Below, one piece after another: positions 125-60,400 of a stretch of DNA of 64,000 bases. Position 1 is the first letter of the stretch; the number at the start of each line of letters is the position of its first letter. A program made the translations under genes and the position numbers. The notes beneath the pieces are model-generated. The model saw only the letters and a program-made list of their open reading frames with translations. It made no database searches and was not told the origin of the DNA. The DNA is taken from assembly GCA_021413925.1 (NCBI GenBank), contig JAIOPL010000010.1, forward strand, positions 1 through 64,000, in the 5' to 3' direction. Origin of the DNA: Verrucomicrobiota bacterium (GTDB lineage: Bacteria; Verrucomicrobiota; Verrucomicrobiia; Chthoniobacterales; UBA6821).

Positions 125-1077
125 TTGACGAAGAGGCAGAAGTATTCCCTAGCCAAATTACTGAAGCAATATCCGGGAGATCTCTTGAGGCAGATCAAGG
201 AATTGAAGATCGAGACCGGTGTCTCGGCCTGGGCTGATCCGAGAACTTCACTTTTGATGACGATTTCCGGCATCCCCCGTAGGATCGGCTTTGATCATCA
301 GGCGCAGAATTACTTCGGTTCCGAACGACCTTGGCGTGCGGCAGGACTCAAGAAAGCTCAGATGCTGCAAGGTATCATGCGAGTTCTAGGCAAACCACTG
401 CTTACGGAATGCCTCAAGCGGAATAATTATCTTCAGCATCATGTGGAAGATTGCGCCCAGTTTTACAGGCATCTCGGGGTGGAATGGAAACCCGAATATC
501 CTTGGCTCACACAACCTGCAGCCCTGTTGCCTGAGGAAATACAAAGTTTCGTTCAGGAACATCATGAAGCAGGACGACCGGTGGGAATCGTACATGGTGA
601 TGAGCGGACGGAGGCAAAAAGATGGCCTGCTGAGAGATTCCAGGAGTTGGTGGAGCGATATCTCATTCCAAACAATCTCCCCGTCATTCTGCTTGAACTT
701 AAAAGAATTTCATCCCCCGGAGATTCATCATCCGCTAGTGTTTACTTTCAGACCCGAATCTCTGGCTGCCTATGTGGCCCTTTCCGAACTTTGCGACTAC
801 GCTATCTACAATGACACCGGTTCAGCTCATGTCAGTAGTGCCACGGGAAAAATCAGTAGTGACGATCTTTAGCAATAGCCGGCCGGAATGGTTCTCTCCC
901 TATGGGAATGAGCAATTTATTGTGCCCGGGGCAGAATGCCCGCATAAGCCATGTCTCGAGCATTGCATGATGCAAAGTTTCATCTGCCGAGATGGGGTGA
1001 CGGTTAAGTCAGTTGTGGAGAAGCTTAGAAGTTGTCTGCGCGAACTAAATATACAAAAAACAGGATGCGATGAGTGA
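125..1077 (+). pseudogene. Broken GT9 heptosyltransferase-like gene
   Basis: The region carries a glycosyltransferase family 9 (lipopolysaccharide heptosyltransferase-like) sequence spread over three frames. The first part, to about 700, has the mid-domain motif IPRRIGF. The second part, about 700-850, carries the nucleotide-sugar-binding end YNDTGSAHVSSATGK. The third, about 850-1077, has the C-terminal tail with ECPHKPCLEHC. Two +1-type frame changes are therefore needed, one near 690-715 (AAAA run) and one near 848-852 (AAAAA run). The N-terminal GDxxL part is also not in frame upstream, so the gene is broken at its 5' side or runs off the window. Both breaks sit at short A runs, so assembly error cannot be excluded, but several breaks in one gene favour real decay. 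The last codons overlap the start of the intact GT9 gene at 1070, as in an operon. Confidence 0.7.
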
Positions 1078-2089
1078 TGTTCTGATTGTCCGCCTAGATC
1101 ACTTGGGTGATTTGGTTCTGACTACGCCCTTATTTCGCGCCCTTAGCAAGGCGGGGCACCGTGTCACTGTCGTTGCCCGTCAATCCTCACTACCTGTCTT
1201 GGAGGGGAACCCTTATATATACAATCTGTTGGCCTCGGAGGATTTAGCGCCCGATTTTCCAAGGGGCTTACTGGCTCTGGGCGGGGCGATTCGCAGGCTC
1301 CAACCTGAAGTCGTGATGCTGCCTCACGCGAAGCCGCGAAGGTTGCTCTTTGCTGTGCGGTCTAGTTTTTTCGGGAGAATGATTGTGATGTGGGGTGGCA
1401 TTCCATCGAGGCTTCTTCTCTGTAACTCCTTGCGTTCAGGATTGCCTGAACGTGTAAGGCACTATTCTGACATTATGCTCGATATGGCAAGGGCATTGAA
1501 TGTTCCTCCGGATGGAGTGAATCCAGAAATCTTTCTTTCCGATATTGAAAAGAAGAACGCAAGGAATCTGCTCCGCGAGAGGTTCGGTGATCGGAAGGTG
1601 TTGGTAATTCATCCCGGATGCGCGGGGAATACCTGCAATCTTCCGATTGATTCCTACACTGCTCTGGCGAGGAGGTTGCTTAGTTCAACAGATGTTGGGA
1701 TTGTTTTTTCTGGCATTTCACCAGAGAGGGAGGTGTTTGTTGGCAAGCTTTCTGAGTTTGAGGGTAATGAACGCGTCTGGAATACGATGGGTGAGTTTTC
1801 ATTGCGAAAATATTGCGGCATTATCGAAGCATCTGATCTTGTTGTCACACCTAGCACGGGACCACTTCATCTGGCTAGTGCCTTAGGGAGAAGTACGCTA
1901 TCCCCCTTTTGCTGCAGAGCAGGTCTAAGCAAGGAAGTATGGGGAAACCTGAGCGCTAAAAGTATTGTGCTTGAGCCTCCAAGTCGTGTTTGTGCAGGAC
2001 GAAACAAAGGAAAATACTGTGATTTTCAAGGATGTATCAATGTCGAAAAGCTTCTTCAGTCTTGTATCGATCTTCTTGCTATCGCTTGA
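1070..2089 (+). CDS. GT9 family glycosyltransferase (heptosyltransferase-like)
   Basis: This 339-residue protein is intact. The N-terminal Rossmann half starts with VLIVRLDHLGDLVLTTP (residues 4-20), the acceptor-side GDxxLTTP signature of GT9. HPG at 181-183 opens the C-terminal half, and STGPLHLASALG (262-273) is the donor-nucleotide site. Family members transfer heptose or similar sugars from ADP-sugar onto LPS core at the inner face of the cytoplasmic membrane. The exact sugar cannot be read from sequence. The ATG overlaps the end of the broken GT9 upstream, so the two were probably one transcription unit. It converges on another GT9 gene 23 bp away. The C-terminal part is Cys-rich, as in the broken neighbour, suggesting the two are related copies. 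Confidence 0.85.
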   Translation: MSDVLIVRLDHLGDLVLTTPLFRALSKAGHRVTVVARQSSLPVLEGNPYIYNLLASEDLAPDFPRGLLALGGAIRRLQPEVVMLPHAKPRRLLFAVRSSFFGRMIVMWGGIPSRLLLCNSLRSGLPERVRHYSDIMLDMARALNVPPDGVNPEIFLSDIEKKNARNLLRERFGDRKVLVIHPGCAGNTCNLPIDSYTALARRLLSSTDVGIVFSGISPEREVFVGKLSEFEGNERVWNTMGEFSLRKYCGIIEASDLVVTPSTGPLHLASALGRSTLSPFCCRAGLSKEVWGNLSAKSIVLEPPSRVCAGRNKGKYCDFQGCINVEKLLQSCIDLLAIA

Positions 2090-2112
2090 TTCTGATGGCG
2101 ACAGCAGTTTCT

Positions 2113-3255
2113 TTAAGTAATTAGGGAGAGCAAAAGGTCTGCAACTTTCTTTGTTGTGGCTTGATCGAGATGGGAGTTTTGTTCTTTAGGAGGAAGAAAT
2201 TCCATATCAGGGCCTAGGTCGTATTCCGAGTCGGGGCAATAGACCCCGGCTTCCATTCTGGAGAACCACGGATTGCGCACAAAGACAACAGGCACCCCCG
2301 CCGCATTGGCAAGATGGCGGGGGCCGGAGTCCGTGCTCAGGACGACATGGCATTTGGTGAGAAAGGCGATCAAGGCCCGAAGCTCCAGACGGCCCGCATT
2401 GATGCTGACCGGTAAACTGAGCGAGGATTGCAGTAATTTTAACTTCTCTGCGTCCTGAGCAGCGCCGCAGAGCACGATCTGAGCAGTGCTCGAACTGTGG
2501 AGTAGCTCCAGGGTCTCACGGAACTTCTCGAGCGGCCAGACACCAGTCGGTTGGCGCGTCGTGACAAAACAGGCCAATACCGGGCGATCATCTGCCAACT
2601 TGAGTTCGGACCAGAGGGCTTCTGCTTTCCTGTGATCCTGCTCAGTCAGAGTGACTTTCGGACGCAAATCCCAGTTGGTTTCTTGCTCAGTGAGTTGAGC
2701 CACGAGATCTCGGAAATAGGCAGGAAACGGTTGAGGGTAGTTGATCCTGATTGGATGGGTTACCAATCCGGACCATCCCTTGTGGACGTATCCGACTCGG
2801 TTTGGAATGCCCAGAAGCGTTGCCGTCAGCAGTGGGCGGCTGTAGGAGCCGCTGTCGTAGCAGATCGCGACATCATACTGCTCCTGCTTCAATTTCATGA
2901 AGTCCTCCGATCCATAGTACGGGATCTCCATCCGGTGGATTTTCCGGAATGCATGATTGGCCTCTAGTACCTGCGCGGCCGGTTCCGGTGCCAAAATATC
3001 CCAAGTACAGTCCGGGAAACCCTTCGCCAATTGCATCAGGGAGGATGTGCGGTATAAGATATCTCCGATATGATTCGCGCCGATCAGAAGCCCTTTGCGC
3101 CATCTCTCCGGAGAGGTGGAGGAGCCCGACCACCATCTGGAGCCCATTCGCAGCATTGGGGCAAGCGCCTCGGTTGCATGGGCGCAAAGCAGTTGCCTGT
3201 GGCTTCGGAAACACTCAGGAATCATCTCTATGGGAGATCCTGCTCGTGCTTTCAT
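2113..3255 (-). CDS. GT9 family glycosyltransferase (heptosyltransferase-like)
   Basis: This 380-residue protein has an N-terminal extension of about 55 residues before the family core. GLLIGANHIGDILYRTSSL (residues 55-73) is the GD-containing first strand and loop. STDSGPRHLANAAG (from 307) is the donor-binding motif, here with Asp-Ser-Gly-Pro as in most heptosyltransferases. GT9 enzymes add heptose-like sugars to the LPS core or related glycans. It is divergent from the polymerase gene at 3312 (56 bp between starts, which should hold both promoters) and convergent with the preceding GT9 gene. The sequence is far from the 339-residue neighbour, so it is not a recent duplicate. The long N-terminus could mean the true start lies inside the listed one. 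Confidence 0.85.
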   Translation of the reverse strand: MKARAGSPIEMIPECFRSHRQLLCAHATEALAPMLRMGSRWWSGSSTSPERWRKGLLIGANHIGDILYRTSSLMQLAKGFPDCTWDILAPEPAAQVLEANHAFRKIHRMEIPYYGSEDFMKLKQEQYDVAICYDSGSYSRPLLTATLLGIPNRVGYVHKGWSGLVTHPIRINYPQPFPAYFRDLVAQLTEQETNWDLRPKVTLTEQDHRKAEALWSELKLADDRPVLACFVTTRQPTGVWPLEKFRETLELLHSSSTAQIVLCGAAQDAEKLKLLQSSLSLPVSINAGRLELRALIAFLTKCHVVLSTDSGPRHLANAAGVPVVFVRNPWFSRMEAGVYCPDSEYDLGPDMEFLPPKEQNSHLDQATTKKVADLLLSLIT

Positions 3256-3311
3256 TTCCCTGCAAGGAGCGAGAATGGCTTAGGTTATTTAACCGCCTAT
3301 CGTGATTAATC

Positions 3312-4862
3312 ATGGGTAAGCAATCATTCAATCCGGCTAGCGGGCAATTCATGATCTGGGGAGTGATTGCACTGGGATTGTACGCCGCACTCCAGGCGGG
3401 AAATATCATTGCCGATGACGGTTACGGAACGATTCTAATCTATCTCGGAGCCCTGATCGGGGTGATCGCCGTCCTGACCATCAGGCAGTATTGGTGGATT
3501 CCCCTTTTTCTGATCACCGCGGTGAGTTTTTCTACCTCGGTCGGATTCAAGCTTCAGGGAACCGATATCGCGGCCATGCTCGCTCTAGCCGCTCTCCTGG
3601 CGATGGTCTGCATGGGGCAACTCAAGTCAAAGCATGCCGAGTCGAACTTAGGTTTCTTTTTTTACTTATTGCTGCTCTATGTGGGAATGCATGCCGTGCT
3701 CTTCGGCTTGCAGAACTATTACAGCGGAGACACGCAGTTCAAAAACATCGTGAAGGCCTACTACGGGGCGTTTATGCCCCTAGTGATTATTTGGTTGATG
3801 GACCGATACGCCCATGAAAAGGGAATAAAGGGAGTGATCCTGACTGGAACGATCCTGAGCGTGATTTTTGGCATCATCGCTCTTGTCATGCACCTTGCCG
3901 GGTATTCCCTGCCGATTATTGGCGGGGGAACACTTGATTTCAGCTGGGCAAGCGCGGGGAACGCAATCGGCTATCTCCGATGGGTGATCCTGCCATTCCT
4001 GATGCTCGCGATCTGCATGGTATCCTGCAGGTCTCTTTCTGCCGGAAGTAAAATCTTATATAGGGTATCCATAGGAATTCTGATTCCACTCAATGTTTTC
4101 GGTGGTGGACGTGTGGCTTTAATCAGCCTTCTGCTTTTTATTGTTATCTGGTTTGGCATCCGGAAGAAGTGGCAGCAGGTTATCATCACCGGATGGATCA
4201 CCATGCTGGCAGTAATGGCACTAGTCCTGATGGGCCACACCATTGATGCAAGAACTCTCCAGAATATGCCGGAGAGTTTCAAGAATGTGCAACGCGCCGT
4301 CTCGATCTTCCTGCCGGCGGATCAGCAGAATGATGACCAGACAATGACCGAGGGGAGCAATGTGTGGCACGAGGATCTGGTGAAGGGATCCTGGGACTAT
4401 GCCATGAAGAATGCCTCCACAATGATTTTCGGCAACGGCTACAAGGGATGGGATGATTCGATCAACATCAACATGTTCACCTACGGGGCGGCCTATGACT
4501 CGGCGGTCCAGATGGCTATTCGAATGGGGATGTCGGAAACAATGTTTTTCAGTGCATTGGCGATTTTCGGATGGCTGGGTGTGGTGCTCTACTATGCCTT
4601 CATGATCGAACTGCTTCGCAGAAGCCGGCGGGTCATTCATCTCTGCTCCCAAGGCACGATGGCGAGGAGTCTCTGCGAGTTTTCGTTCTGCAGTATCCTG
4701 GTGACCATCATTGTCTCCCCGATCGGAGGGGCGATTCCCTCGTACGGCCTGATCTACTGGATGCTAGGATTCACTGCTGCCGAGCCGTACCTGGTGAGGC
4801 GTGCGAGCGGGGCTGTGGCAAAAGGCGCTGTGTATCTAGGATCAAAGCGGGCCATCGCTTAA
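3312..4862 (+). CDS. O-antigen polymerase/ligase-like membrane protein
   Basis: This 516-residue polytopic membrane protein has about ten to twelve hydrophobic segments and one large hydrophilic loop near residues 315-385. Such a loop is the usual layout of Wzy polymerases and WaaL/RfaL ligases of the O-antigen ligase superfamily. A short GGGRVALISLLLF stretch in the middle resembles the Arg-containing part of the Wzy_C region (GSRGALL-like). These proteins polymerise or attach undecaprenyl-linked oligosaccharide repeats on the periplasmic face. Polymerase and ligase cannot be separated by sequence alone. Neighbouring GT9, FkbM and GT4 genes support a role in surface polysaccharide assembly. 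The start is an ATG directly after a TAATC spacer; no clear Shine-Dalgarno is visible. Confidence 0.7.
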   Translation: MGKQSFNPASGQFMIWGVIALGLYAALQAGNIIADDGYGTILIYLGALIGVIAVLTIRQYWWIPLFLITAVSFSTSVGFKLQGTDIAAMLALAALLAMVCMGQLKSKHAESNLGFFFYLLLLYVGMHAVLFGLQNYYSGDTQFKNIVKAYYGAFMPLVIIWLMDRYAHEKGIKGVILTGTILSVIFGIIALVMHLAGYSLPIIGGGTLDFSWASAGNAIGYLRWVILPFLMLAICMVSCRSLSAGSKILYRVSIGILIPLNVFGGGRVALISLLLFIVIWFGIRKKWQQVIITGWITMLAVMALVLMGHTIDARTLQNMPESFKNVQRAVSIFLPADQQNDDQTMTEGSNVWHEDLVKGSWDYAMKNASTMIFGNGYKGWDDSININMFTYGAAYDSAVQMAIRMGMSETMFFSALAIFGWLGVVLYYAFMIELLRRSRRVIHLCSQGTMARSLCEFSFCSILVTIIVSPIGGAIPSYGLIYWMLGFTAAEPYLVRRASGAVAKGAVYLGSKRAIA

Positions 4863-4989
4863 TTGAAGGGGTGCTGCTCATTACGGTGGCCATAAATTTC
4901 TTCCAATCCTTTAATATAATTTTCTACACTACGACTCTGTTGCGGCCATCCTAACTTAACGCTCTTAAAGCACCAAAAACCTATTATGT

Positions 4990-5781
4990 ATGATCGAGTT
5001 AGCCTGGCTTAACAAACTGCACTGGCGGTTCAAGTATGCTTGGAACCTTGGTCTTGGTTCCACAACGGTCTGTTTTCTACAAAAAATCCGTCAGTCCATC
5101 GGTCGTCAAACTCGTCCCTACAAGCTACTTTGTAAATACATTAAGCATCCACTTCTCTGCCGTCCAGGGACAAGCGACAGGAAGGTGTTTTTACAGATTT
5201 TTGCTGACCGCGACTATCAATGTCTCGACGAAGTTCAAAGCGCTCAACTTGTGATCGATTGCGGCGCGAACGTCGGATATTCATCGGTTTATTTCCTCAA
5301 TCGATTCCCCAGTGCAAAGGTTATCGCGATTGAGCCCGATCCCAATAATTTCGCCCTTCTAAAGGCCAATGTCGCGCCTTATGGCGACCGCTGCGAAACT
5401 CTACAGACCGCAGTGTGGTCGAGCGAGACTGACCTTGTGATCTCCGAGGTGCCATTTCGCGATGGGCGAGAATGGTCAAAAACGGTGCGTCCGATAAGAA
5501 CTGGCGAGACCGGCTCCATGAGGGCAATCAGCATCGGCTCGGTTTTGAAAGAAAGCGGCCTCCAGCGAATCTCAATCCTCAAGTGCGATATCGAGGGAGC
5601 TGAAATCCAGGTTTTCTCTTCCGGTTTTGAGTCATGGCTAGGCAAGGTGGACAATCTTGTGATCGAGTTGCATGGTGATGAGGCGCGGGCTATCTTTCTA
5701 AGAGCAATCTCCCATGAAGGATTTCAAACTTCAGAGTCGGGCGAGCTTTTTGTATGCCGTCGCGCTACCTCCATCCCTTAG
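4990..5781 (+). CDS. FkbM family SAM-dependent methyltransferase
   Basis: This 263-residue protein has the FkbM fold. VIDCGANVGYSSVYF (residues 88-102) is the SAM-binding glycine loop, EPDP (115-118) binds the ribose, and KCDIEGAE (198-205) is the conserved FkbM motif after strand 4. Family members O-methylate hydroxyls of sugars or polyketides. In a polysaccharide cluster the expected substrate is a glycan, perhaps a terminal cap. It lies 127 bp after the polymerase gene on the same strand. The flanks (4863-4989 and 5782-6063) are clearly AT-richer than the rest of the window, which fits a horizontally acquired polysaccharide cassette. The substrate is inference. Confidence 0.85.
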   Translation: MIELAWLNKLHWRFKYAWNLGLGSTTVCFLQKIRQSIGRQTRPYKLLCKYIKHPLLCRPGTSDRKVFLQIFADRDYQCLDEVQSAQLVIDCGANVGYSSVYFLNRFPSAKVIAIEPDPNNFALLKANVAPYGDRCETLQTAVWSSETDLVISEVPFRDGREWSKTVRPIRTGETGSMRAISIGSVLKESGLQRISILKCDIEGAEIQVFSSGFESWLGKVDNLVIELHGDEARAIFLRAISHEGFQTSESGELFVCRRATSIP

Positions 5782-6063
5782 AGGAGTGGTTAGCGCCCAC
5801 CACACAAAATAGGTGCAATAAAGAATCGTGCCGTAAATTCAGTATTACGAAGCAGATTCCGGTATTCTATCAAAATCCTTTTTTAAAATATGATCAGATT
5901 TTTCAGTCAATCCACTAATTCAACGATAATTTCTTGCCCCGCATGGTCTTTAGGGTTGATTAAACTTGGAGACCAGCACTCTAAATTAATCAAATCAGCG
6001 CGCTCACGACACTCTATTCATCTGAAAAAAGATCGTCCATTCGTTCCCATTCAGCGAAATCTC
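5782..6063. other. AT-rich spacer between convergent genes
   Basis: The spacer is 282 bp and lies between the FkbM gene and the 3' end of a minus-strand glycosyltransferase. It is AT-rich compared with its surroundings. A 90-codon frame starting at 5890 runs into the glycosyltransferase in antisense and has no recognisable features, so I do not call it. I see no convincing terminator hairpin here. Confidence 0.4.
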
Positions 6064-7173
6064 TTACGAGATTTTACTCATGAGATTGACGAACATCTCC
6101 TCGTAGCTGGTGGTGATGACCTCCCAGTCATAGAGACTCGCCACCCGTTCGCGGGCAGCTAGCCCCAGCCGTCGGCGTTCCGCCGGATTGTCAAGAAGCC
6201 CTGAGATTGTTTCGCGAAGGCTCTCTATTTCGCGATCCTTTTCGAATACAGCCACCGCCTCGCCTCCCACTTCGAGGTTTGCGGCCGAGTTGCGTATGAC
6301 GATGCAGTTTCCGAATCCCATCTGATCCAATAGGACGGGTCTTGTTCCGTCGATGCCGCTGGGTAGACAGAAGAGTGACGCCGATCTGCTGATGGCGGCA
6401 TAGTCGTCGGCAAATACGTACCCGGCAAAGACGACCCTTCCGTCGGCTGCCTCGCGAAGGGATTGCTTGTACGCCTCGGAGTAGGGTGCATCGCCCACGA
6501 TAACGAGTTTCTTGTCCGTTTTGATTTGCTTGAATGCCTCGATGAGGAGTTCGGCCCGGTTCTCCGGCACAAGTCGGCTGACGAAAAGAACGTATCCGTC
6601 CGGCTCTAGGCCTAGCCGCTTGAGGATGTCGCTCGGGGGAGTTTCAGTGGGAATATTAGCCCCGTAGGGGACATAGACCGTCTCGCATCCGTAGAGTTCG
6701 CGGTATCGCTTCTGGATGACTTTGGCATCGGCAACGACGATGTCTGCAAAACGAGCTGCCCAGGACTCGCTCCAGAGAAGCCATCGGGAAGCAAATCCGC
6801 TCCATTTCTTGCGGGCCCAGTCTTCCCCGTCGACATTGATGATCGTGGGAATGCCAAGCCAGCGGCAAGGGAGGCAGAAGATGGCATTGCCAACGCCGCA
6901 GAAGTAGGCGATATCCGGGCGCTGGAAGGGTAGCAAGAGCACGGACAGAAAAGTGTGGACGATGGTGTCGAGGGACTTCTTGTTGATGGTGGGAAGCCTG
7001 ATGATGCGAACCCCCTTGTAAGTGCGGTCCTTGAAGGGCACGAACGGGTAGCGGTTGAAGACCACGACCTCGTGACCGCGCTTCACAAGCCTTATGGAAA
7101 GCTGCTCGTAGAAGGTTTCAAACCCGCTGTAACGGGCCGGTATGCCACGGGATCCGAGGAATGCGATTTTCAT
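6064..7173 (-). CDS. GT4 glycosyltransferase with DUF1972-like N-terminus
   Basis: The protein has 369 residues from the chosen ATG at 7173. An upstream in-frame start would add 47 residues of low-complexity sequence overlapping the previous gene. The N-terminus MKIAFLGSRGIPARYSGFET is the signature of the DUF1972 GT4 group (WchF/rhamnosyltransferase-like). VLFVSRLVPENRAELLIEAF is the GT4 donor-domain opening, and FCLPSGIDGTRPVLLDQMGF replaces the usual EGFGLPxLEAM motif. The enzyme is expected to be a retaining cytoplasmic or membrane-peripheral sugar transferase for a surface polysaccharide. It follows the next GT4 gene with a 19-bp gap on the minus strand, so they are likely co-transcribed. 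The sugar specificity is unknown. Confidence 0.85.
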   Translation of the reverse strand: MKIAFLGSRGIPARYSGFETFYEQLSIRLVKRGHEVVVFNRYPFVPFKDRTYKGVRIIRLPTINKKSLDTIVHTFLSVLLLPFQRPDIAYFCGVGNAIFCLPCRWLGIPTIINVDGEDWARKKWSGFASRWLLWSESWAARFADIVVADAKVIQKRYRELYGCETVYVPYGANIPTETPPSDILKRLGLEPDGYVLFVSRLVPENRAELLIEAFKQIKTDKKLVIVGDAPYSEAYKQSLREAADGRVVFAGYVFADDYAAISRSASLFCLPSGIDGTRPVLLDQMGFGNCIVIRNSAANLEVGGEAVAVFEKDREIESLRETISGLLDNPAERRRLGLAARERVASLYDWEVITTSYEEMFVNLMSKIS

Positions 7174-7192
7174 GTGGGTCGAGGGGTGGCTT

Positions 7193-8341
7193 TTAAGTCG
7201 TAATTCGTGCAATGCGTTCCCATGCCCGGACCGTTGGTGCGGCAAGTCGCTCCAAGGTGTAGGAAGCCGCGTGGAGAATCCCTTCGGCCGAGAGTGAACT
7301 GCGTTTCGTCTCATCTTTCCTCAACATGAGGATGGTCTCTCCGAGGGCCGCTTGATCGGTTACATCGGTGTAGCAAGCCGCTGTCCCACAGACTTCCGCA
7401 AGCGCCGAATGTCGGCCGAGGATCACAGGCGTGCCACAGGCCATCGCCTCAATGGGGGGGAGCCCGAAGCCTTCAAATAGGGAGGGATAGACAAAAAGCA
7501 ACGCTCCCGAGTAGAGGGCGGGAAGATCCTCCTCCGGTAAATATCCGGTGAAAACAATCCGATCGCCCGATGCATCACCGATGCCGGCCTCACTGAGGAT
7601 CTCATCAAAGAGCCAAGCCTTCTTTCCGGTGATGACGAGTGAAGTCTCCTTCATTTCGGGTCGGTCCATGATTCGTCTCCAGGCGCGGATCAACGAGATG
7701 ATGTTTTTGCGCGGCTGGAGATTCCCAAGCGCAAGGATGTAGCGTTCGGGAATGCCCAATCTGGAACGGAGGCCCCTTATTTTTTCCGTTTCAGCGCGCT
7801 TGTAGTGCGGGGGAAGGGCGTTGGGAGTGACGATGACTTTTTCCGAAGGGATCCCCAGTCGCCGGATAATATCCTCTCTGCAAAATTCGCTGATGGTCAT
7901 CACGATATGCGAGGTTTTTGCGGATCGGGGGATCGTCGCCCGGAATCGTGCAACCTCGCCTCGGGTGAACCACTCAGGGTTATGTTCATAGGAGAGATCG
8001 TGGATCAGCAGGGAGACCGGACATCCCGAGAGCAGGGGGGAGACATACTGAAGATGAATGAGATCCAGGCCGTCACGAAACGATGCCAGAGGGAGGTCTA
8101 ATCCGAGGCGTTTCAGCGGATTTGGAGAGACTTGATGGCGCTCGGCGCCTTGCAGGAGATCGCCGGCGATACGATTGGCGGTCGAGTGGCTGACGTACAG
8201 GACGTAGTCATGCTCTGGATGGGCATTTAAGCCCTGGAGGAGACATCGCAGGTAAGTTTCGTTTCCTCCGAGGTTTGATCCTAGGGCATGGGCGTCAATC
8301 CCGATCCTGAGCCGTTTTTTGGAGATGGAAGATGTCGCCAT
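7193..8341 (-). CDS. GT4 family glycosyltransferase
   Basis: The protein has 382 residues from the ATG at 8341. A TTG 27 bases upstream is also open but less likely. LRIGIDAHALGSNLGGNETY is the N-terminal glycine-rich acceptor loop. YILALGNLQPRKNIISLIRA starts the donor domain, and LFEGFGLPPIEAMACGTPVI carries the E(x7)E pair typical of GT4 retaining transferases (mannosyl- or glucosyl-transferase type). It is the first gene of a two-gene minus-strand unit and is divergent from a gene at 8470. The intervening 128 bp should contain both promoters. A GGTGGA sits about 14 bases before the ATG, too far to be a good ribosome site. Confidence 0.88.
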   Translation of the reverse strand: MATSSISKKRLRIGIDAHALGSNLGGNETYLRCLLQGLNAHPEHDYVLYVSHSTANRIAGDLLQGAERHQVSPNPLKRLGLDLPLASFRDGLDLIHLQYVSPLLSGCPVSLLIHDLSYEHNPEWFTRGEVARFRATIPRSAKTSHIVMTISEFCREDIIRRLGIPSEKVIVTPNALPPHYKRAETEKIRGLRSRLGIPERYILALGNLQPRKNIISLIRAWRRIMDRPEMKETSLVITGKKAWLFDEILSEAGIGDASGDRIVFTGYLPEEDLPALYSGALLFVYPSLFEGFGLPPIEAMACGTPVILGRHSALAEVCGTAACYTDVTDQAALGETILMLRKDETKRSSLSAEGILHAASYTLERLAAPTVRAWERIARITT

Positions 8342-13936: not shown

Positions 13937-14764
13937 TCAAGTCTTAGCCGGAAGGTGTTCCCTGCAGAATTCCCTGCCGTCCGCTGTGACGCGGAAATCA
14001 ATGTCCGGATGGCTGGACTCGGTGTTACCGCATGCCTCGCAGCGATGGAGCGTCTCGACTGGTTGGTTTTTTTTGCTTTGTTTTTGGCCTTGAGGCTTGA
14101 GTCGGGTGGGAGCACCGGAGAATCCTGCAACACCCCTTTTCAGAATGCCCAGATGGGATCTCAACTCAGTATTGAAAAACAGAAGGTAGTTGAGAAAAGC
14201 CGCTCCCAGAGTCGCGGCTACTATCAGTGGTTGACCCAATGCGGAGAGGATCATGATGAAGGCACTGAAGAGAGCCAACCAGGCGATCCTGACCGGAAGA
14301 ATGAAGAAAACCAGGACCTTGAAGTCGGGGTAGACCGTTGCATAGGCAAGTAGCAGTGAGAGATTAAGAAAGGTATTGGCCCGTCCGATGGAGGTCCCTT
14401 CACCTGACAATCCGAATCCGAAGGAGACCATCGTGCAGAGCAGGATGCCGCACAAATAAAAAGAGGTCAGTCTCGCCGCTCCCATGGCGGTCTCTAGTCC
14501 ATCGCCTAGGTAAAGCAGGAAAAGGAGTGAGAAAAAAATCCAGAACGGACTCAGTGTCTCCGGAATAAAGATCCAGGTAACAAGTCTCCAAATCTCTCCT
14601 CGAAGAACAAGGGCGGGATTGAGCTCCAGAACCGAAAGATATCCCGGGGCCAGAAGATGGAGAATGAAAACCAAGGCGTTGAAGAGAACCACGTAGCGGA
14701 TCAACCCCGGCACGGCGCAGTATTCCGAGATTCTACGCAGTCGGTCATTGAGTTCGGAACGCAT
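13937..14764 (-). CDS. Rhomboid-like membrane protein with C-terminal zinc ribbon
   Basis: This 275-residue protein has six predicted transmembrane helices in residues 20-198. ALVLRGEIWRLVTWIFIPE (51-69) is the characteristic rhomboid L1-loop sequence (GQxWRLxT), and the following helices keep the rhomboid spacing. The serine-protease signature is not intact. The GxSG region reads GTSIGRANTF, and the last helix (GQPLIVAATLGAAFLNYLLF) lacks the catalytic His. It is therefore likely a rhomboid pseudoprotease, of the type that binds membrane clients without cutting. The C-terminus carries Cys242-x2-Cys245 and Cys267-x2-His270, a putative zinc ribbon. Its start faces the gene at 14825 across 60 bp, where both promoters should lie. 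Confidence 0.75.
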   Translation of the reverse strand: MRSELNDRLRRISEYCAVPGLIRYVVLFNALVFILHLLAPGYLSVLELNPALVLRGEIWRLVTWIFIPETLSPFWIFFSLLFLLYLGDGLETAMGAARLTSFYLCGILLCTMVSFGFGLSGEGTSIGRANTFLNLSLLLAYATVYPDFKVLVFFILPVRIAWLALFSAFIMILSALGQPLIVAATLGAAFLNYLLFFNTELRSHLGILKRGVAGFSGAPTRLKPQGQKQSKKNQPVETLHRCEACGNTESSHPDIDFRVTADGREFCREHLPAKT

Positions 14765-15642: not shown

Positions 15643-16452
15643 TCAAGGGTCTTCAAAGACTCGCACGAAGTCAGGTTTTCCATTCCGCAGGAAGAAGGGA
15701 ATGAGGCAGTTTCCCTCGGCCCCTTCCTGCTCGATTTCCAGAGGGATGCCCTGCCCGTCGATGACGGCCTCATAGCTCACGCACGCGGGCTGGTGCACTA
15801 GCAGGACGCTGTTTCCGGGAGCCAGATAGGCAAGCTGCTGGGCCGGCTTGTTCTCGGAGGCGGGGCTTCGGAGTAGGAGTGTTTTCCCCGGCATGGCATT
15901 GATGATCCTGTAGTGGCACGGATCAGAGGTGACTAGCGTGTAGGGGATAACATGGAACTGAACGTTGGGAAGGTAAACTCCCCGGGGTGCTGCATCTCCC
16001 AGGACCTGAGGTAGTTTTTCCGCCGGTCCGCGCGTGCTCAAATCACCCGTCAGCAGGAGGTATTGGCTCGAGACTGGTTTGAACCGGATGGTTTGGACTG
16101 TTGCGAGGCCGCCATTGGTGCTCCGCACGACATAATGAACCTCTGGCGTTGCGATGGCCTTATTGGCTGTCCATTTCCCCTGGGGAAAGTCGGGGTAGGC
16201 GATCGGCTTGTTGGTTCCGCCATTTCTCCCAGTGCCAATCCCAAGGGAGATCGAGGGAACGCTGGTGGCGTTCACAATGGTGACCCGGATCTCGGGAGTT
16301 GGAGTCGGGGTGGCTGCGGCGTGATGGTGCTGATGAGATGCCCGAGGTCCCTGAGGTCCCTGAGTTGAAAGCGTCGGCGAGGCGGGTGAGGGAGAGAGAG
16401 CCGGAACGAGTGTTGTCTGGGCCAGTAAGATAAATGCAGTGAATGTCATCAT
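15643..16452 (-). CDS. Secreted protein of unknown function, cassette gene 5
   Basis: This 269-residue protein has an N-terminal hydrophobic signal peptide (MMTFTAFILLAQTTLVPALS). A low-complexity linker of Pro/Thr/His follows (HQHHHAAATPTPTPE), then a roughly 210-residue domain that starts IRVTIVNATSVPSISLGIG and looks beta-rich. It contains three cysteines that could form disulfides. I do not recognise the fold. It begins 54 bp after the cassette A gene on the same strand, so it is likely the last gene of that operon and may be secreted or displayed by the same pseudopilus machinery. That role is inference from position. Confidence 0.7.
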   Translation of the reverse strand: MMTFTAFILLAQTTLVPALSPSPASPTLSTQGPQGPRASHQHHHAAATPTPTPEIRVTIVNATSVPSISLGIGTGRNGGTNKPIAYPDFPQGKWTANKAIATPEVHYVVRSTNGGLATVQTIRFKPVSSQYLLLTGDLSTRGPAEKLPQVLGDAAPRGVYLPNVQFHVIPYTLVTSDPCHYRIINAMPGKTLLLRSPASENKPAQQLAYLAPGNSVLLVHQPACVSYEAVIDGQGIPLEIEQEGAEGNCLIPFFLRNGKPDFVRVFEDP

Positions 16453-16506
16453 AACTGAGAAAAGGGATGCGTGGACTTGGAAGGTATGGCCTTGGAATGC
16501 ACGGAC

Positions 16507-19329
16507 TCAGCGCCACTGCACGTCATGCAGGGAAGGGATGAGTCGGCCTGTGGCATCGGGTTCCAGCCGGAGAAGTCCCTCCATGAGCGAGCGTCCCTTG
16601 GTTTTGCCATGAGGATCGAGAGCTTCGCCGATTACGTACAGATGGAAGACGCGGGTTTGCAGGATGCAATGACCGATGATCTTGCCGAAGGCCTCTTCCC
16701 TGGCACGGTCGAACACGGCGGCTGTCGGCGGTGAACTGCCTGGGATATTCCTTTGAAGGAAAGGCGTGTAGGTATCCGCGTTGACGAGATTTGTTGTGAG
16801 CGGGTAAAGATCGGAGAGTTTCTGGTAGGGACGGTTTGCTTCCACGACGGAGGCCAGATCATCCGCCGCATTGGCGCTAATACGTGAATTCGTAAAACGT
16901 TGGTCTGAGGTGACCCCGACTCCGTAGAAAAGTGAAGTGAGCACAGCGTGAGAGGCGGTGTTGACATTGATACGACCGGGAATGCCGGTGTTCGTGCCGA
17001 GTTGGTTGGTATCTGCCGAAGTATCCCTGGAAGGGGCGCGGCGTCCTTCGTCCGCTAGGGTGAAGAGATCGAGGAGTTCGATGGCTCGCTTGCCGGGAAC
17101 ATCCCAGTTGTTGGCTCCCGCAAACTGGAACTCCGGCTGCCCGATTCGGAGCGTCCTCCCACCACCACTACAGGTTAAGATGCCGGCCTGACTCGTGTTC
17201 ACGGCCGAGCCCTGATCATCCACCTGGGCCGGTTCAAAGATATTCCCTAATTCCGCAAGGGAAACCATGGCTCCCTTTCGCATGACATCGGGGGCTGTCT
17301 TGTTATCGATTCCCTCACGATAGGAGGAGGGGATCTGATCAGGCATCTGCTCGGCAGTGGCGGGGCGGTTTCCGATCACGGGATTCTCCGGGATCCAGTC
17401 GCGGCTTTTCCAAGTGTTCTTGGGATCCAGAATCATGCCTTTGTTGAGTACGCCACCCGGGACAACGCCGTTCCAGAGAGTGTTTTCCTGATAGCTCGCG
17501 ATCGGAACCCACGTGTAGGAGGTCAGAAAGGTGGCGCGGGGATCTCCGACAAAACGGTATTTCCCTGGATCCAGCGCCTCGGAGGATTCGTCCGGTTCGG
17601 TTTCTTTGCCTGAGTAGGTGGGAACCGTGAGGCATTGCCACCGAGGCTGGGAGTTGAGCAGTTGCTGTGCATTATGCTTCAGCCCGCCCTGTTCCTTCTT
17701 GGATTCATTCGTAGAACGGCGGGTCAGGTCGACAAGCTTCTCGTTCCAGTAAAACTCGAAGTATTCAGGGGCATTGTTTTCGTTGCCAGTCGGACCCTCC
17801 TTCCAGCTGGGTTCGTTGGTGCTTGGAGGGGTGGGTGAGTTCCAAGTCTGGGATTCAGGCTGGAATGCCACTACGGTGAATTCATTCGGACGCAGATCTC
17901 TGGTTGAGGAAGCAGTTTCATCATATTTCTTGAAAGGTGTCTCCACACCGGTTCCAAAAGCCACATAAGCCCTGTTCCCGATCACTAGACGAGGAATGCC
18001 TCCTCTCACGACGCTTGTTGTGGGGTTCCAGATCTCGACAAAGAACTGGCTTTCGATTGCGGTCATGTTGGTAGTGCTGTTTGTCAGGTAGGCGGTGCGC
18101 GTGCATTTTTCGGCAATCTGCGTCACATAGGGGACGAGATCCCTGCCCGATGGCTCACCTCCCGGAGGCCCTGTGGGTCCTGGTGCCGTGGAAATGTAAT
18201 CGACGATGCTGCAGGCCAACCGTGTCAGGTAGAGGAACGGGTCGCTTCCTTTCTTGGCCAATGAGGGATCACGTTGTTTGAACTTCGGGAGGTTCTTGTC
18301 GATGATACGGGCGATATTGGTCGCGCGATCGTAGGATGTGGCGCCCCAGGCTGGGTTTGTGGCCAGATCGTTGAGGTTGTATTTTGGCAATCCACCTTCC
18401 GGAAGTGTCGCGGGGATGAGATCCGGCGTTTTGCAAGGATCGCGGGTTAGGAGTGAGCGTTTTTCCCCGTACTCCCGAGAGTCTTGGAATGCGGTTTCGA
18501 AGCTTCCCGCTGTCGGGAGATGACTCGCGATTTCGTGGAGATGGGCGGCTTCCTCGGGGCTTGGCAAGAGAGTGCTCCCGTCCGCCAGCGGGAGATCACC
18601 AGGACCATGATCCCAGTCCTTGGGATCCGTGCGTGGATTGCCGAGGTGAAGGGCCGGATTCAAACGGGCCGACTCGTCGGTCATGATGAAGGCATAGCGT
18701 CCCACAGTTTTTCCCTCGCTGTCATGGAGGGATTGCCAGAGTGCCGGATACACGCCATCGGAAGCGATCATCCCCGACCCCCTCAGCGCGGGCTCATTCG
18801 TCCCTTTTGAGTTGTTCTCATTGTTCGTGTCGAGGGAGCTTCCGACGAATGAGGGATCATTCAGGTCCACTGCCACGGAGGGGTTAGTGGAAAGCCGCTC
18901 ATCAAGCAGTGATTTCAAGGTGTTTTTGGTGAGCTTTGGAAAGAGCGCCGCTTTGGTGAGGTCGAAGGAAAAAAGAGGCAGAATCTCGGTGCTGTTCGTG
19001 AGGTTAGATGCACCAAGAAGGAGAGGGGGGACGATATCTTCTTCAGGATCTTCTCCCTCTCCATTGGGTAGGGGTAGGCCGACCAGATAGGCCGGACGAT
19101 TCGAGGTCGCGATCAGCAATAGCTCGCTTGCCGAGGCAATGCCGGACTCGGCACTCAGTTCCGCCTGTTCCTCTGCCGAGCAGGCCGCGCTACTTGTTCG
19201 CTCGATCCGCACGCTTTGGAGAAGGCAGACAAGCAGGAGTGTGAGCAGGCCGATCAGGCTGAGGACAGCAATGATAGCCGACCCCCTTTCCTCTTGTCGG
19301 GACTGCAACCTGGATGGAGATTTCGTCAT
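16507..19329 (-). CDS. Verru_Chthon cassette protein A, GspK-like minor pseudopilin
   Basis: The protein has 940 residues from the ATG at 19329, which overlaps the previous stop (ATGA). A short basic leader RQEERG is followed by a hydrophobic helix, SAIIAVLSLIGLLTLLLVCL, as in class III pilin signals, but without Glu at +5. Lack of Glu5 is typical of the GspK minor pseudopilin. From residue 786, RINVNTASHAVLTSLFYG and ADDLASVVEANRPYQKLSDL match the GspK helical repeat (iNvNtA...L...l). At about 940 residues it is roughly three times the length of a classical GspK, with a large central insertion. Known as a Verrucomicrobia-specific cassette protein (TIGR02600 type). It would cap a pseudopilus tip with the C, B and D products. 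Confidence 0.85.
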   Translation of the reverse strand: MTKSPSRLQSRQEERGSAIIAVLSLIGLLTLLLVCLLQSVRIERTSSAACSAEEQAELSAESGIASASELLLIATSNRPAYLVGLPLPNGEGEDPEEDIVPPLLLGASNLTNSTEILPLFSFDLTKAALFPKLTKNTLKSLLDERLSTNPSVAVDLNDPSFVGSSLDTNNENNSKGTNEPALRGSGMIASDGVYPALWQSLHDSEGKTVGRYAFIMTDESARLNPALHLGNPRTDPKDWDHGPGDLPLADGSTLLPSPEEAAHLHEIASHLPTAGSFETAFQDSREYGEKRSLLTRDPCKTPDLIPATLPEGGLPKYNLNDLATNPAWGATSYDRATNIARIIDKNLPKFKQRDPSLAKKGSDPFLYLTRLACSIVDYISTAPGPTGPPGGEPSGRDLVPYVTQIAEKCTRTAYLTNSTTNMTAIESQFFVEIWNPTTSVVRGGIPRLVIGNRAYVAFGTGVETPFKKYDETASSTRDLRPNEFTVVAFQPESQTWNSPTPPSTNEPSWKEGPTGNENNAPEYFEFYWNEKLVDLTRRSTNESKKEQGGLKHNAQQLLNSQPRWQCLTVPTYSGKETEPDESSEALDPGKYRFVGDPRATFLTSYTWVPIASYQENTLWNGVVPGGVLNKGMILDPKNTWKSRDWIPENPVIGNRPATAEQMPDQIPSSYREGIDNKTAPDVMRKGAMVSLAELGNIFEPAQVDDQGSAVNTSQAGILTCSGGGRTLRIGQPEFQFAGANNWDVPGKRAIELLDLFTLADEGRRAPSRDTSADTNQLGTNTGIPGRINVNTASHAVLTSLFYGVGVTSDQRFTNSRISANAADDLASVVEANRPYQKLSDLYPLTTNLVNADTYTPFLQRNIPGSSPPTAAVFDRAREEAFGKIIGHCILQTRVFHLYVIGEALDPHGKTKGRSLMEGLLRLEPDATGRLIPSLHDVQWR

Positions 19330-20075
19330 GGCTGGGACAAGACCTCGCGACATGGCGGAAGGTGAATGATAGCCGTTGATCGTTGCAGCCCCTCTCTCAG
19401 AAGGCGGCCGTTTCTCTCTACTGCCTTGGGGTCCGAGGCGATGAGGCGAGCGGTCCTTGTATTGATGGCGGAGAGAGTCACCTCCAAAAGCTCCGGAGGA
19501 GTGCTTTGTTCAGGAATGGAACGGATCTGAAAGAAAACGATATTTCTCGCCAGCAGTTCCGTGGTAGCGGCGTTCTCCGGGGAGGCTTTTCCATAGAGTT
19601 CTTGCAGGGAATCCTCTTCCACCGCCTTGGATACGGGTTCCCCGGAGGCATGGAACCGGTAGAGATTCGTACATCCGTTTTCCTTGGGATCCGCGGCAAG
19701 AAAGTAACCTACTGCACAGAGATCTCCCTTGATCTCGGAGTGCCTTCGATCCGCTGGATGCGAAACGAGAAAAAAGAGACCTGAGGATTGTTCCTGTTCG
19801 GGCTTTCTGATGTCGAGCGAGTCGGAATTGGTGGTGATGACTGCGGAGTGGAGATCCTCGGTGATGATCTGAAGTGAGGCCCGAAGTTCACGAAGAGCCT
19901 CGCGTCTTCCTTCCCCATCGCGCCAGACCTTGGAGGCTCCATCTCCCATACCTAGAAGGAGCAGAATCAGAACGGCTAGGATCGCCGAGGAGACAAGAAC
20001 CTCCGTGAGCGTGAACCCCTCATGGTTGAGGGGTTTTCCGAAATAGCCGTTTTTGATGTGATAATCGGATCGCAT
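19326..20075 (-). CDS. Verru_Chthon cassette protein C, GspJ-like pseudopilin
   Basis: The protein has 249 residues from the ATG at 20075; the longer open frame to 20309 is antisense-like and overlaps gene B. After a leader of about 19 residues comes GFTLTEVLVSSAILAVLILL, the type IV pilin-like methylation motif with Glu at +5. The position after gene B and before gene A, and the ELRASLQIITEDLHSAVITT helix, fit GspJ minor pseudopilins. The prepilin peptidase would cut after the Gly. The globular domain (residues 60-249) has no catalytic motif. Gene starts and stops overlap or touch on both sides, so the cassette is translationally coupled. Belongs to the TIGR02599-type family by recognition. 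Confidence 0.85.
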   Translation of the reverse strand: MRSDYHIKNGYFGKPLNHEGFTLTEVLVSSAILAVLILLLLGMGDGASKVWRDGEGRREALRELRASLQIITEDLHSAVITTNSDSLDIRKPEQEQSSGLFFLVSHPADRRHSEIKGDLCAVGYFLAADPKENGCTNLYRFHASGEPVSKAVEEDSLQELYGKASPENAATTELLARNIVFFQIRSIPEQSTPPELLEVTLSAINTRTARLIASDPKAVERNGRLLREGLQRSTAIIHLPPCREVLSQP

Positions 20076-20077
20076 GG

Positions 20078-20593
20078 TCACGGTATCGCGAGAAGCTTTG
20101 TGAAACGATGGAGGGTTCGCCCCGATGCCGGAGCTGAAGGAGGCAAGGCCACTAGGACCTCGGCAATCACGATGCCGGGAGTGGAGCGTTTCGGGCTCAG
20201 GGTTAGCCACGCGAGGGCGGTGATGCCCTGCTCGAGGACGGGGTTGGTGGCTTCGGAAGCGGGGATTGCACGAATCGGTTCGCATGAGGAGTCGTAGGCG
20301 ATACAGCAACTTGTCGGGGATTTGGCGGCGATGTTTTCCCAGACCGGAACGCCGTTGCTCATCGCTGTGGCTAGATGGAGAAGAGACGGATTATTTCCGA
20401 ATGAAAGGCCCTCCATGATATCGGAGGCAATCAGGGTTGCCTGGGTCTCTTCCTTGGCGTCCCTTTCGGTTTTGTGGGTTACGGAGAACAGGGCGATCAG
20501 GGCAAATGCCGTGATGGAAAAAACACCGACGGCAACCAGAATCTCCACAAGGGTGAAGGCATGAGCTGATGAGCAGCTGATCTTCTTTCTCAT
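20078..20593 (-). CDS. Verru_Chthon cassette protein B, GspI-like pseudopilin
   Basis: This 171-residue protein has the N-terminus MRKKISCSSAHAFTLVEILVA, a short basic leader followed by AFTLVE: Ala at -1 and Glu at +5 of the mature helix. The hydrophobic helix runs FTLVEILVAVGVFSITAFAL. The following KTERDAKEETQATLIASDIM stretch resembles the GspI helix that precedes its small beta domain. The ATG overlaps the stop of gene D, and the stop is two bases before gene C starts. Order D-B-C-A therefore parallels gspH-I-J-K. It is expected to be a minor component at the tip of a type II secretion or type IV pilus fibre. Confidence 0.85.
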   Translation of the reverse strand: MRKKISCSSAHAFTLVEILVAVGVFSITAFALIALFSVTHKTERDAKEETQATLIASDIMEGLSFGNNPSLLHLATAMSNGVPVWENIAAKSPTSCCIAYDSSCEPIRAIPASEATNPVLEQGITALAWLTLSPKRSTPGIVIAEVLVALPPSAPASGRTLHRFTKLLAIP

Positions 20594-21210
20594 TGCTTGG
20601 GACTCGTGGAATTGTAACTGGCTCGCCCGCTGCCACGGGAGAGCTCGATGGGAGAAGGCAAGGGACCTTTGGGGGATCGTAGGCGCAGTAAGAGTGCCGG
20701 GCCTCCCTGTTGAGGAATGCCGATTCTTCCCGAGCGTTGGAACATCACTCCCCCTACCGAGATGGTAGGAGGAACCGGGGCAGCTATTGCGGCACCCATC
20801 GCCGCAGCGATCACCTCGGCTAGTGGCTTCTGATCCATCAGGGTATCTTCCCCGACCTGGAACATGATTCCCCGGGGAAGCATGGTCCAGCTACCTGCTG
20901 ATGTGAATGGCACGGACCCCGTACCTCCTATTCCCTCGCGAGTGACGATGCGAAGGGATGCTTGTTTTAGCTCATCATTATTCCTGAACAGCACCCAGGT
21001 CTCCTTTTTACCCGAGACTGCCGCCAGACGCGCCTGCTCCAGGCTCCCCATGACAAGACTCACTGCGGCGTTGTTCGCTTGGGAGCGGGTGATCGCTCCC
21101 CATGTCGGAACCGCAAGCGACACGAGGGCAGCGATCACCGCCATGACGACAAGCAACTCAGTCAGTGTGACTCCCGTACGAGTAGAGTTGTTAGGAAGAA
21201 GGTCAGACAC
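20590..21210 (-). CDS. Verru_Chthon cassette protein D, GspH/FimT-like pseudopilin
   Basis: This 206-residue protein has the leader and motif TGVTLTELLVVMAVIAALVS, with Gly at -1 and Glu at +5. QANNAAVSLVMGSLEQARLA follows, typical of GspH/FimT pseudopilins where this helix leads into a beta-sandwich. VLFRNNDE matches the usual start of the GspH core. It is the first gene of the D-B-C-A cassette, so its promoter should lie in 21211-21290 on the minus strand. No major pseudopilin (GspG), ATPase (GspE), platform (GspF) or secretin gene is in the window, so the assembly machinery must be encoded elsewhere. Confidence 0.85.
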   Translation of the reverse strand: MSDLLPNNSTRTGVTLTELLVVMAVIAALVSLAVPTWGAITRSQANNAAVSLVMGSLEQARLAAVSGKKETWVLFRNNDELKQASLRIVTREGIGGTGSVPFTSAGSWTMLPRGIMFQVGEDTLMDQKPLAEVIAAAMGAAIAAPVPPTISVGGVMFQRSGRIGIPQQGGPALLLRLRSPKGPLPSPIELSRGSGRASYNSTSPKQ

Positions 21211-57441: not shown

Positions 57442-60400
57442 CTAAACCCCTTTGGCCACCTTGCGGCCAAGCACTTCCTTGAGAAATGGAGCTGTCCTGC
57501 TGGTCTTGCTCTTGGCTACTTCCTCGGGGGTTCCGGTCGCAACGATCTGGCCGCCCCGATGCCCAGCCTCCGGACCGACATCAATGATGTAGTCTGCCTC
57601 GGCCACGAGATCCAGATGATGCTCCACGACGATCACTGTGTGCCCCTCGTCGACAAGACGATGGAGCACGGTCTGAAGGAGTTCCACATCGGCTGCATGC
57701 AGTCCGATCGTTGGTTCTTCGAGGATGTAGAGTGTGCCTCCCCGCTTGGCCATGCGTGGGCGTTCGGTGCCTCCTCCTCCGCGCGCAAGCTGAGTAACGA
57801 GCTTGATGCGCTGGGCCTCACCGCCGCTGAGCGTGGGGCTCGGCTGTCCGAGCTTGAGATAACCGAGGCCTGTCTCGACCAGGAGCTGCAAAGGCTTGCG
57901 GATCTTGGGATGGGCGGCAAAGAACTCCGCGGCCTGTTCGACCGTCATCGAGAGAACGTCTCCGATGGACTTGCTATCGTACTTTACTTCCAGGGTCTGG
58001 CGGTTGAAGCGGGTTCCGCCGCAATCCTCACAGGGCATGTAGGAAGCGGGCAGGAAGTTCATCTCCAGCTTGATGACACCCTGGCCCTCGCAGGTGTCGC
58101 AGCGCCCGCCCTGATTATTGAAGGAGAAGCGACTTCCCGAGTAACCGCGCATCCTGGCGTCCGGCAAACCCGCGTAGAGGGTCCTGATAGCATCGAAGAT
58201 CTTCAGGTAGGTGGCGGGGGTCGAGCGGGAGGTCTTGCCGATCGGAGACTGATCGACCTCGATCACCTGCGAGAGGTGCTGGACTCCGCTGATCGATTTC
58301 CAATACTGCGGGCCGTTCTTCTTCCGTCGGCCGGTACGAACCAGGGATTCCTCGACGGCAGGAAGAAGCACACCTCGCAGCAAGGTGCTTTTGCCGGATC
58401 CGCTGATGCCGCTGATGGCGGTAAGGCGTTGAAGAGGGAAGCTGACGTCGACGTTGTCGAGGTTGTGACGCTTGGCGCCCTTGAGTTCGAGCCATGCGGC
58501 AACATCCTTTATCGAGCGACGCGATCCGCGCAGTGGATGAACGGGCGGTTCGCGTAGGAACTTTCCGGTCAGTGAGCGCTCGTTAGCCATCACCTCATCC
58601 ATGGTGCCGAAGGCGATGATTTCCCCTCCGTGGCTTCCGGCCTTGGGGCCGAGATCGATGATCCGGTCGGCCCGGCGCATCGTTTCCTCATCGTGCTCGA
58701 CGATGATCAACGAATTACCCTGCGCCGTGAGTTCCCCAAGCGCATCGAGGAGTCGCTCGTTATCGCGGGGGTGCAGTCCGATGGTCGGTTCGTCGAGGAC
58801 ATAGAGGACGCCGCGCAGATTCGAACCAAGCTGGGCGGCGAGACGGATACGCTGCGATTCTCCGCCGCTGAGGGTCTTGGCTGAGCGGTGGAGTTGCAGG
58901 TAGTCGAGGCCGACACGGCCCAGGAACTCCAGTCGCTGGCGAATCTCCGGAAGGATATCCCGTGCCACGATCTCATCGCGCCCCTTGAAGTTCCAATTTC
59001 CTGTGAGAGTGAGTGCATCGTTGGAGGATCGTGCGGAGAAACCGGCGATGCTCTCCCCGTTGATCCTCACGGCACAGGCCACGGGATTGAGGCGGTCACC
59101 CTGGCAGACGGGGCAGGGGCGGGTCTCGCCCTCCTCACGGTTTTCAAAGGATTTTTCCGCCGCCAAGTCGGCCTCCAACTGGGAGTCAAAGTCCTTGGCC
59201 TTGGGGATCTCGCTCCAGACCTCGCCGAAGCCCCGGCAATGCTCGCACCATCCATGGGGTGAGTTGAAGGAGAAGAGCCTGGGATCGAGTTCTTCAAAGG
59301 ATCGTCCGCAATCCGGGCAGTTCATCTCCGAGCTGAGGATTCGGAATTCCTCGGCGATGGCTGCGTTGGTTTTCTTGCCCGCTTTTTCCTTAAGTGCCTT
59401 GGAGGTCTTCGAGGCTTTGGTAGTTTTTCCCTTGGCAGGTTTCTCCTTGGGCATTTCAGCAGGCACGGGGCGTGCCTTGGCTGTTCCCTTGCCGATATCA
59501 AGAGCCTGCTTAGCCAGATCGAGGATTCCTTTCTTCGCTCCCTTCTCGATCGTGCCGATCAGGACATCGATGCTGTGTTCCTTAAAGCGTTCCAGAGGCT
59601 CAAAATCCTCCACCCCGACCAGTTCCCCATCGACCAACAGAGTCGAATATCCATGGTCACCCGCCCAGCGGGCGACCTCGGTGTGGTATCCCTTGCGTCC
59701 CCGGATCAGGTTGGCAAAGAGTTGGACTGGGGAGTCTTTCGCCATGGCCTCAAGCTCCGTGGCCACGGCGGTGAGTGAGCTCTTCTGGACGGCAACGTTG
59801 CAGTCGGGGCAATGCTGGGTTCCGAGCTTTGAGTAAAGGAGTCTTAGGAACTGGTGGATCTCTGTGACGGTGGCGACGGTCGACTTGCCTCCACCCCGGG
59901 TGATCCGCTGCTCGATCGCCACACTTGGTGGCAGGCCTTCGATCCTGTCGACATCTGGTTTCTCGAGTTGTTCAACGAACTGACGGGCATACGGGGACAT
60001 ACTGTCAAGGAACCGCCGCTGCCCTTCCGCGAAGAGAATGTCGAACGCTAGTGTCGACTTGCCGCTGCCGCTCAGTCCGGTCACGACGATCATTTCGTCA
60101 CGCGGGATATCGATGGAGATGTTCTTGAGATTGTGTTCGCGTGCTCCGTGAATCTGGATCGATTTTGAAACCGGTGTCTGCTTTCGGACCAGGCCTTTTT
60201 CAAGAAGGAGAGGGGGTCTTCCCGCTAGGACTTCGCGCAAATAGCGTCCCGTGTGAGAGCCCTGGGTGGCCGCAACTTCCTCGGGCGTTCCGCTTACGAC
60301 GAGATTTCCACCCTCGTCACCGGCTTCTGGACCGATGTCGATAACCCAGTCGGCGGTCTTGATCACGTCGAGGTTATGCTCAATGACAATGATGCTGTTC

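Follow-up and report, generated by a model that had tools for sequence, protein, structure and literature searches.

In a 64,000-nucleotide stretch of a freshwater Verrucomicrobiota genome (hereafter, the window) we analyzed five genes, D, B, C, A and E (the last also called gene 5), and we consider it fairly probable that they encode the priming and tip complex of the cell's type IV pilus (T4P). We prefer this reading because protein A is confined to genomes with a T4P secretin, members of the A family carry the PilX_N domain, and the type II secretion system (T2SS) of the same genome has a separate set of components.

Layout, conservation and family matches of the cassette

The genes lie on one strand of the window and their features are collected in Table 1. 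As described in the first-pass annotation, four coupled prepilin genes in the order D-B-C-A are followed by a gene for a secreted protein; the prepilin sites of D, B and C are of class III with Glu5, and the site of A lacks this residue. The gene order and overlaps had also been equated with those of gspH-I-J-K. The order holds, and D and B overlap by ATGA, as do C and A if A starts at 19329, its likely start, which gives a protein of 940 aa. B and C, however, are separated by 2 nt and do not overlap. The gap between A and E is 54 nt. Scanning for promoters and terminators gave no more sites than the count expected by chance.

Table 1. Genes, domains and motifs of the cassette, with positions in the window; arrows mark prepilin sites.
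Feature	Position	Strand	Remarks
D, minor prepilin, GspH/FimU position, 206 aa, Glu5 present	20590-21210	minus	site ..RTG↓VTLTE
B, minor prepilin, GspI/PilV position, 171 aa, Glu5 present	20078-20593	minus	site ..AHA↓FTLVE, Ala instead of Gly at -1
C, minor prepilin, GspJ/PilW position, 249 aa, Glu5 present	19326-20075	minus	site ..HEG↓FTLTE
A, giant GspK/PilX-type minor pilin, 948 aa, no Glu5	16507-19353	minus	site ..ERG↓SAIIA
A residues 24-82, pilin N-terminal helix after G↓SAIIA, GspK/PilX-like	19108-19284	minus	
A residues 226-233, DESARLNP motif, aligned with GspK DExGxLNxN	18655-18678	minus	
A residues 405-575, inserted beta-sandwich domain, none in GspK	17629-18141	minus	AlphaFold model
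A residues 698-705, SLAELGNI motif, aligned with GspK SVxEMxxV	17239-17262	minus	
A residues 795-800, INVNTA motif, start of Pfam T2SSK	16954-16971	minus	
A residues 902-947, C-terminal beta strands (low confidence), aligned with GspK C-terminus	16513-16650	minus	
E (gene 5), secreted tandem beta-sandwich protein, 269 aa	15643-16452	minus	
E residues 55-136, first beta-sandwich domain, DUF4397-like in relatives	16045-16290	minus	
E residues 164-262, second beta-sandwich domain, AlgF C-domain-like	15667-15963	minus	

A was detected in 34 of 58 relatives with a single-protein query and in 47 of them with an order-level alignment (A2); for the collection scan we used a family-level alignment (A1), A2 being too diverse. 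The named relatives are freshwater Spartobacteria/Chthoniobacterales metagenome assemblies, and they point to Chthoniobacterales for the source genome as well. In gene maps, the order D-B-C-A is repeated across the order, and most relatives of the genus show D-B-C-A together with E where the flank downstream of A survives. All five genes gave dN/dS values of 0.10-0.21 against two relatives, indicating purifying selection. Given this recurrence and these dN/dS values, the cassette is not a product of chance.

Regarding family matches, the TIGR02532 model recognized D and C above its cut-off and B at or just under it (14.6-16.5 vs 16.3 bits). The four proteins had been named in the first-pass annotation as members of the Verru_Chthon D, B, C and A families (TIGR02596, 02598, 02599 and 02600). 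Four prepilin genes in the order D-B-C-A, which we take to be the defining trait of a Verru_Chthon cassette, are indeed present in the window, and the likeness extends to the letters and to the best NCBIfam matches of D (TIGR02596) and C (TIGR02599). However, the scores are far under the curated cut-offs for D (31.9 vs 70 bits), B (21.2 vs 51.4), C (41.6 vs 256.5) and A (18.8 vs 332.3), with matches mainly confined to the N-terminal helix, so we discarded membership by name; in the literature searched we found no use of the name Verru_Chthon. The best NCBIfam match of B was PilV (TIGR02523, 33.5 bits), followed by GspI (29.9 bits), both under cut-off, and C matched GspJ with 19.2 bits. None of the window proteins reached the NCBIfam equivalog cut-offs of gspH, gspI, gspJ or GspK. 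For A, the GspK match (33.0 bits) covers residues 22-81 and falls under a cut-off that is also missed by true GspKs of the same order. The INVNTA motif, previously noted near the C-terminus of A, coincides with a sub-threshold Pfam T2SSK match (18.3 bits, residues 795-814). Among other members of the A family in the order, matches to TIGR02600 go down to 3e-19.

Two further observations concern the window outside the cassette. Near it, at 13937-14764, lies a gene for a membrane protein with a rhomboid domain (PF01694, 23.0 bits vs a cut-off of 22.6); a similar gene adjoins A in relatives L073 and L078 and is found near A in L067. At 57442-63072, an ORF of 1876 aa has three ABC segments along with two UvrA interaction domains, and it resembles a fusion of two copies of UvrA into a single chain.

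Protein A and its secreted neighbour

When the full-length A profile was compared with 19 GspKs of the order, the N-terminal helix region alone aligned (probability 92.5%). With residues 261-679 removed, the core of A aligned to GspK with a probability of 72.7% and an E-value of 3e-5 (hhalign), and the DESARLNP, SLAELGNI and INVNTA segments and the C-terminal strands were colinear in both proteins. Three shuffled controls gave probabilities of 0.1-0.9%, and residues 405-680 alone did not match the GspK profile (0.1%). The earlier description of A as a giant protein of GspK type is thereby sustained: A is a genuine GspK/PilX homologue into which about 420 residues have been inserted. Its AlphaFold model is poor overall (pLDDT 49.8); the inserted beta-sandwich, at around residues 405-575, is well predicted, with a core pLDDT of about 80-92. 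Comparison of this inserted domain with PDB folds gave a best Z of 5.2, which is not meaningful, and sequence searches of the PDB with A returned no matches.

The N-terminus of the family resembles PilX. Pfam PilX_N was found in 10 of 18 A-family members (best 1.3e-9) and T2SSK_1st in none of them, whereas the true GspKs of the order presented T2SSK_1st in 18 of 19 cases and PilX_N in 0 of 19. The A of the window matched neither Pfam family, and PilX_N was matched by the A of a relative from the same genus (L102, E=0.002).

The fifth gene had been presented as encoding an unrecognised secreted protein linked to the cassette. Secretion and linkage stand: its short hydrophobic N-terminus is read as a signal peptide, and E occurs in 12 of the 58 relatives, never without A. 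In 11 of these 12 genomes it is the gene immediately 3' of A; in the twelfth, A is cut by the contig end. The protein can no longer be called unrecognised. E (P0005) matched no NCBIfam or Pfam family, PilY1 and DUF4397 included, but its AlphaFold model (pLDDT 75) presents two tandem beta-sandwich domains, similar to the extracellular domain of PepT2 (Z 14.3 over 177 residues, rmsd 3.8) and to the AlgF C-domain (6d10; Z 8.9 over 86 residues, rmsd 2.8). E is thus modelled as a tandem beta-sandwich protein of the AlgF/PepT2/DUF4397 type. AlgF, which mediates protein-protein interaction in the periplasm, has PepT2, pneumolysin and transthyretin among its structural neighbours (PMC10641220), and the E model has the same set of neighbours. 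Sequence identity to AlgF and PepT2 is in contrast only about 12-14%, and no alginate or acetylation genes were noted beside E.

Other genes follow A elsewhere. In L108, A is followed by a diverged E that is 36% identical to the E of the window (E=2e-31) and matches DUF4397 weakly (18.6 bits), and at 12 more distant loci A is followed by another gene with a signal-peptide-like start. DUF4397 was matched in 6 of 11 aligned downstream genes of the order, above cut-off in L084. Direct profile comparison found no significant similarity between E and the genes downstream of A in other families. The case for their homology is therefore made by the DUF4397 matches and the modelled fold; common descent of all these downstream genes is likely.

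The machine and its proposed tip

Akkermansia and other Verrucomicrobiota have a conserved, little-studied T4P (Amuc_1098 to 1102), for which no minor pilins or tip are named in the literature searched. The source genome (2.4 Mb, 95.5% complete) contains genes for two PilB-type ATPases, PilT/PilU, an Amuc_1101-type PilM and two Amuc_1098-type secretins. No prepilin gene was found on contig C6, which carries T4P machine genes, and the neighbourhood of the cassette contains no ATPase, platform or secretin gene and shows no linkage to T2SS genes. A T2SS, which the first-pass annotation had proposed to look for elsewhere in the genome, is encoded on contig C26, with four prepilins, GspM, GspD and a GspK of normal size. 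This GspK adjoins GspD, and the T2SS has its own minor pseudopilins; across the order, normal GspKs likewise go with GspD.

The distribution of A follows the T4P secretin. In the order sample (58 relatives), a full Amuc_1098-type secretin was present in 46 of the 47 genomes with A, the one exception (G021) being 73% complete, and in 4 of the 11 genomes without A, the other 7 lacking it (p=8e-6, phylogeny ignored). Co-occurrence of A with GspD in the same sample gave p=1.0. In a class sample of 139 genomes with completeness of at least 95%, and with A called at E<=1e-20, A was found in 31 of 87 genomes with the T4P secretin and in 0 of 52 without it (p=7e-8, phylogeny ignored). Their joint absence recurs in separate lineages. 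A and the T4P secretin are both absent, with GspD kept, in all four sampled genomes of family f5 and in G024 of family f4; both are also absent in the reduced 0.9-Mb genomes of genus g9, and the larger relatives G046 and G054 keep both. Since many genomes with a T4P lack A, it is not a universal part of the pilus. In the class sample, genomes of genus g27 (family f14), which are probably Akkermansia, have two Amuc_1098-type secretins and no A at 1e-20, and their pilus must therefore use another tip set.

One could argue that the cassette forms an alternative minor-pseudopilin tip of the T2SS, with D-B-C-A swapping with GspH-I-J-K and A recruiting particular substrates. The signature and the gene order are those of GspH-I-J-K (Glu5 in the first three proteins and not in the fourth), the core of A aligns with GspK, NF037980 (GspK) matches 16 of 18 A-family members, and among class genomes with a T4P secretin A is commoner with GspD (26 of 59) than without it (5 of 28; p=0.018). 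Against this, A is found in 0 of the 35 class genomes that have GspD and lack the T4P secretin. Five class genomes carry A without a strong GspD, and G033, which keeps A and T4P secretins, has neither a strong GspD nor a separate GspK. The cassette also differs from GspH-I-J-K in its position apart from the T2SS genes, in the insert and in the lack of T2SSK_1st. With A tracking the T4P secretin and the T2SS having a GspK of its own, we ruled out the T2SS tip as the main reading and consider it unlikely. From the pseudopilus tip proposed in the first-pass annotation, the tip complex remains as the most natural reading, and its attribution to the T2SS is not supported.

The closest parallel to a T4P tip is FimU-PilV-PilW-PilX-PilY1 of Myxococcus xanthus and Pseudomonas aeruginosa, which shares with the cassette the order of four pilins, the last without Glu5, and the adjacent secreted partner. 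In M. xanthus there are three fimU-pilV-pilW-pilX clusters, each also with pilY1; PilX, which lacks Glu5, is placed atop the stack of minor pilins, and PilY1 is dependent on it (PMC7541494). The source genome, similarly, has further A-like clusters. The differences are that A has about 940 aa, with GspK-type motifs and an insert, and that the partner is AlgF/DUF4397-like and not PilY1. As a T4P tip, D, B, C and A (FimU-PilV-PilW-PilX-like) would nucleate the pilus fibre and stay at its end. A, which is enlarged about threefold by the insertion and has no Glu5, would cap the tip, with the inserted beta-sandwich projecting outward, and E would bind A in the place of PilY1, as an adhesin or a protein adaptor. 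Assembly into pili, the tip location, the binding of E to A and the ligand are what we infer by analogy.

Another possibility is that gene 5 encodes a cargo, and that a short pseudopilus-like piston with the giant A recognises and exports it as a one-substrate system. E is secreted, adjacent and tied to A, and PilY1 has itself been likened to a T2SS substrate in M. xanthus (PMC7541494). Yet the cassette has no ATPase, platform or secretin genes of its own, some A cassettes lack gene 5 (genus g2, G004 and G008), and A is confined to T4P genomes, so that we give this explanation slightly less credit than the T2SS tip. Least probable is a T4P tip specialised in DNA uptake, with the inserted domain of A or gene 5 as DNA receptor: it shares the T4P evidence, and one modular minor pilin is thought to bind DNA (PMC8179133), but no DNA-binding feature was identified and the fold relatives of E bind proteins or small ligands (PMC10641220).

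Returning to the T4P tip, pilins of this kind are already known, since modular pilins with grafted domains are widespread and GspK itself is among them (PMC8179133). As in Streptococcus sanguinis PilB and GspK, a functional module is carried on a pilin, probably at the tip (PMC8179133); the module of A differs in sitting inside a GspK-type core and in having no clear fold match. The new part is the combination of a giant GspK-type core, a PilX-like N-terminus in the family and an AlgF-like partner, a tip design that we did not find described in the literature searched. More tentatively, and with somewhat less than even confidence, we suggest a Verrucomicrobiota T4P tip without PilY1, built from a giant PilX/GspK hybrid and an AlgF-like partner, in which several divergent cassettes per genome would supply exchangeable tips to one machine. 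If the cassette does form a T4P tip, the missing tip genes of many lineages would be at hand, and Verru_Chthon-like families that so far are names only would gain a function. A single protein family would also connect two branches of tip pilins, GspK and PilX, and an AlgF-type adaptor could replace PilY1.

Other pilin loci of the genome

A second cassette lies on contig C12 (L056, 7870-14493), in the order B-C-A-secreted gene-D. Its A protein has 1213 aa and matches TIGR02600 at 58 bits; its secreted gene had no Pfam match and looks unlike gene 5. On the minus strand of contig C14 (L113, 1-7769) we found two giant GspK-like ORFs in tandem, one of 1331 aa (213-4208) and one of at least 1160 aa (4286-7768). 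Their C-termini are almost the same and they have DETAKVNINTAS-type motifs; D, B and C genes are absent from this contig. Several A-like proteins per genome were also present in other members. A candidate third cassette at position 15997 of contig C26 was rejected, as it consists of an isolated pseudopilin and the large ORF nearby encodes methionine synthase.

Finally, two smaller loci were recorded. On contig C13 (L057, 4361-6876), a membrane-anchored protein of 358 aa, which had no Pfam match and whose sequence reads like a secretin N-domain, lies between two similar prepilin-type proteins with C-termini of the form DG..HVET. On contig C25 (L115, 7755-8440), a small antitoxin-like ORF is followed by a PIN/VapC-like ORF near an isolated pseudopilin, and the pair is a probable toxin-antitoxin system.
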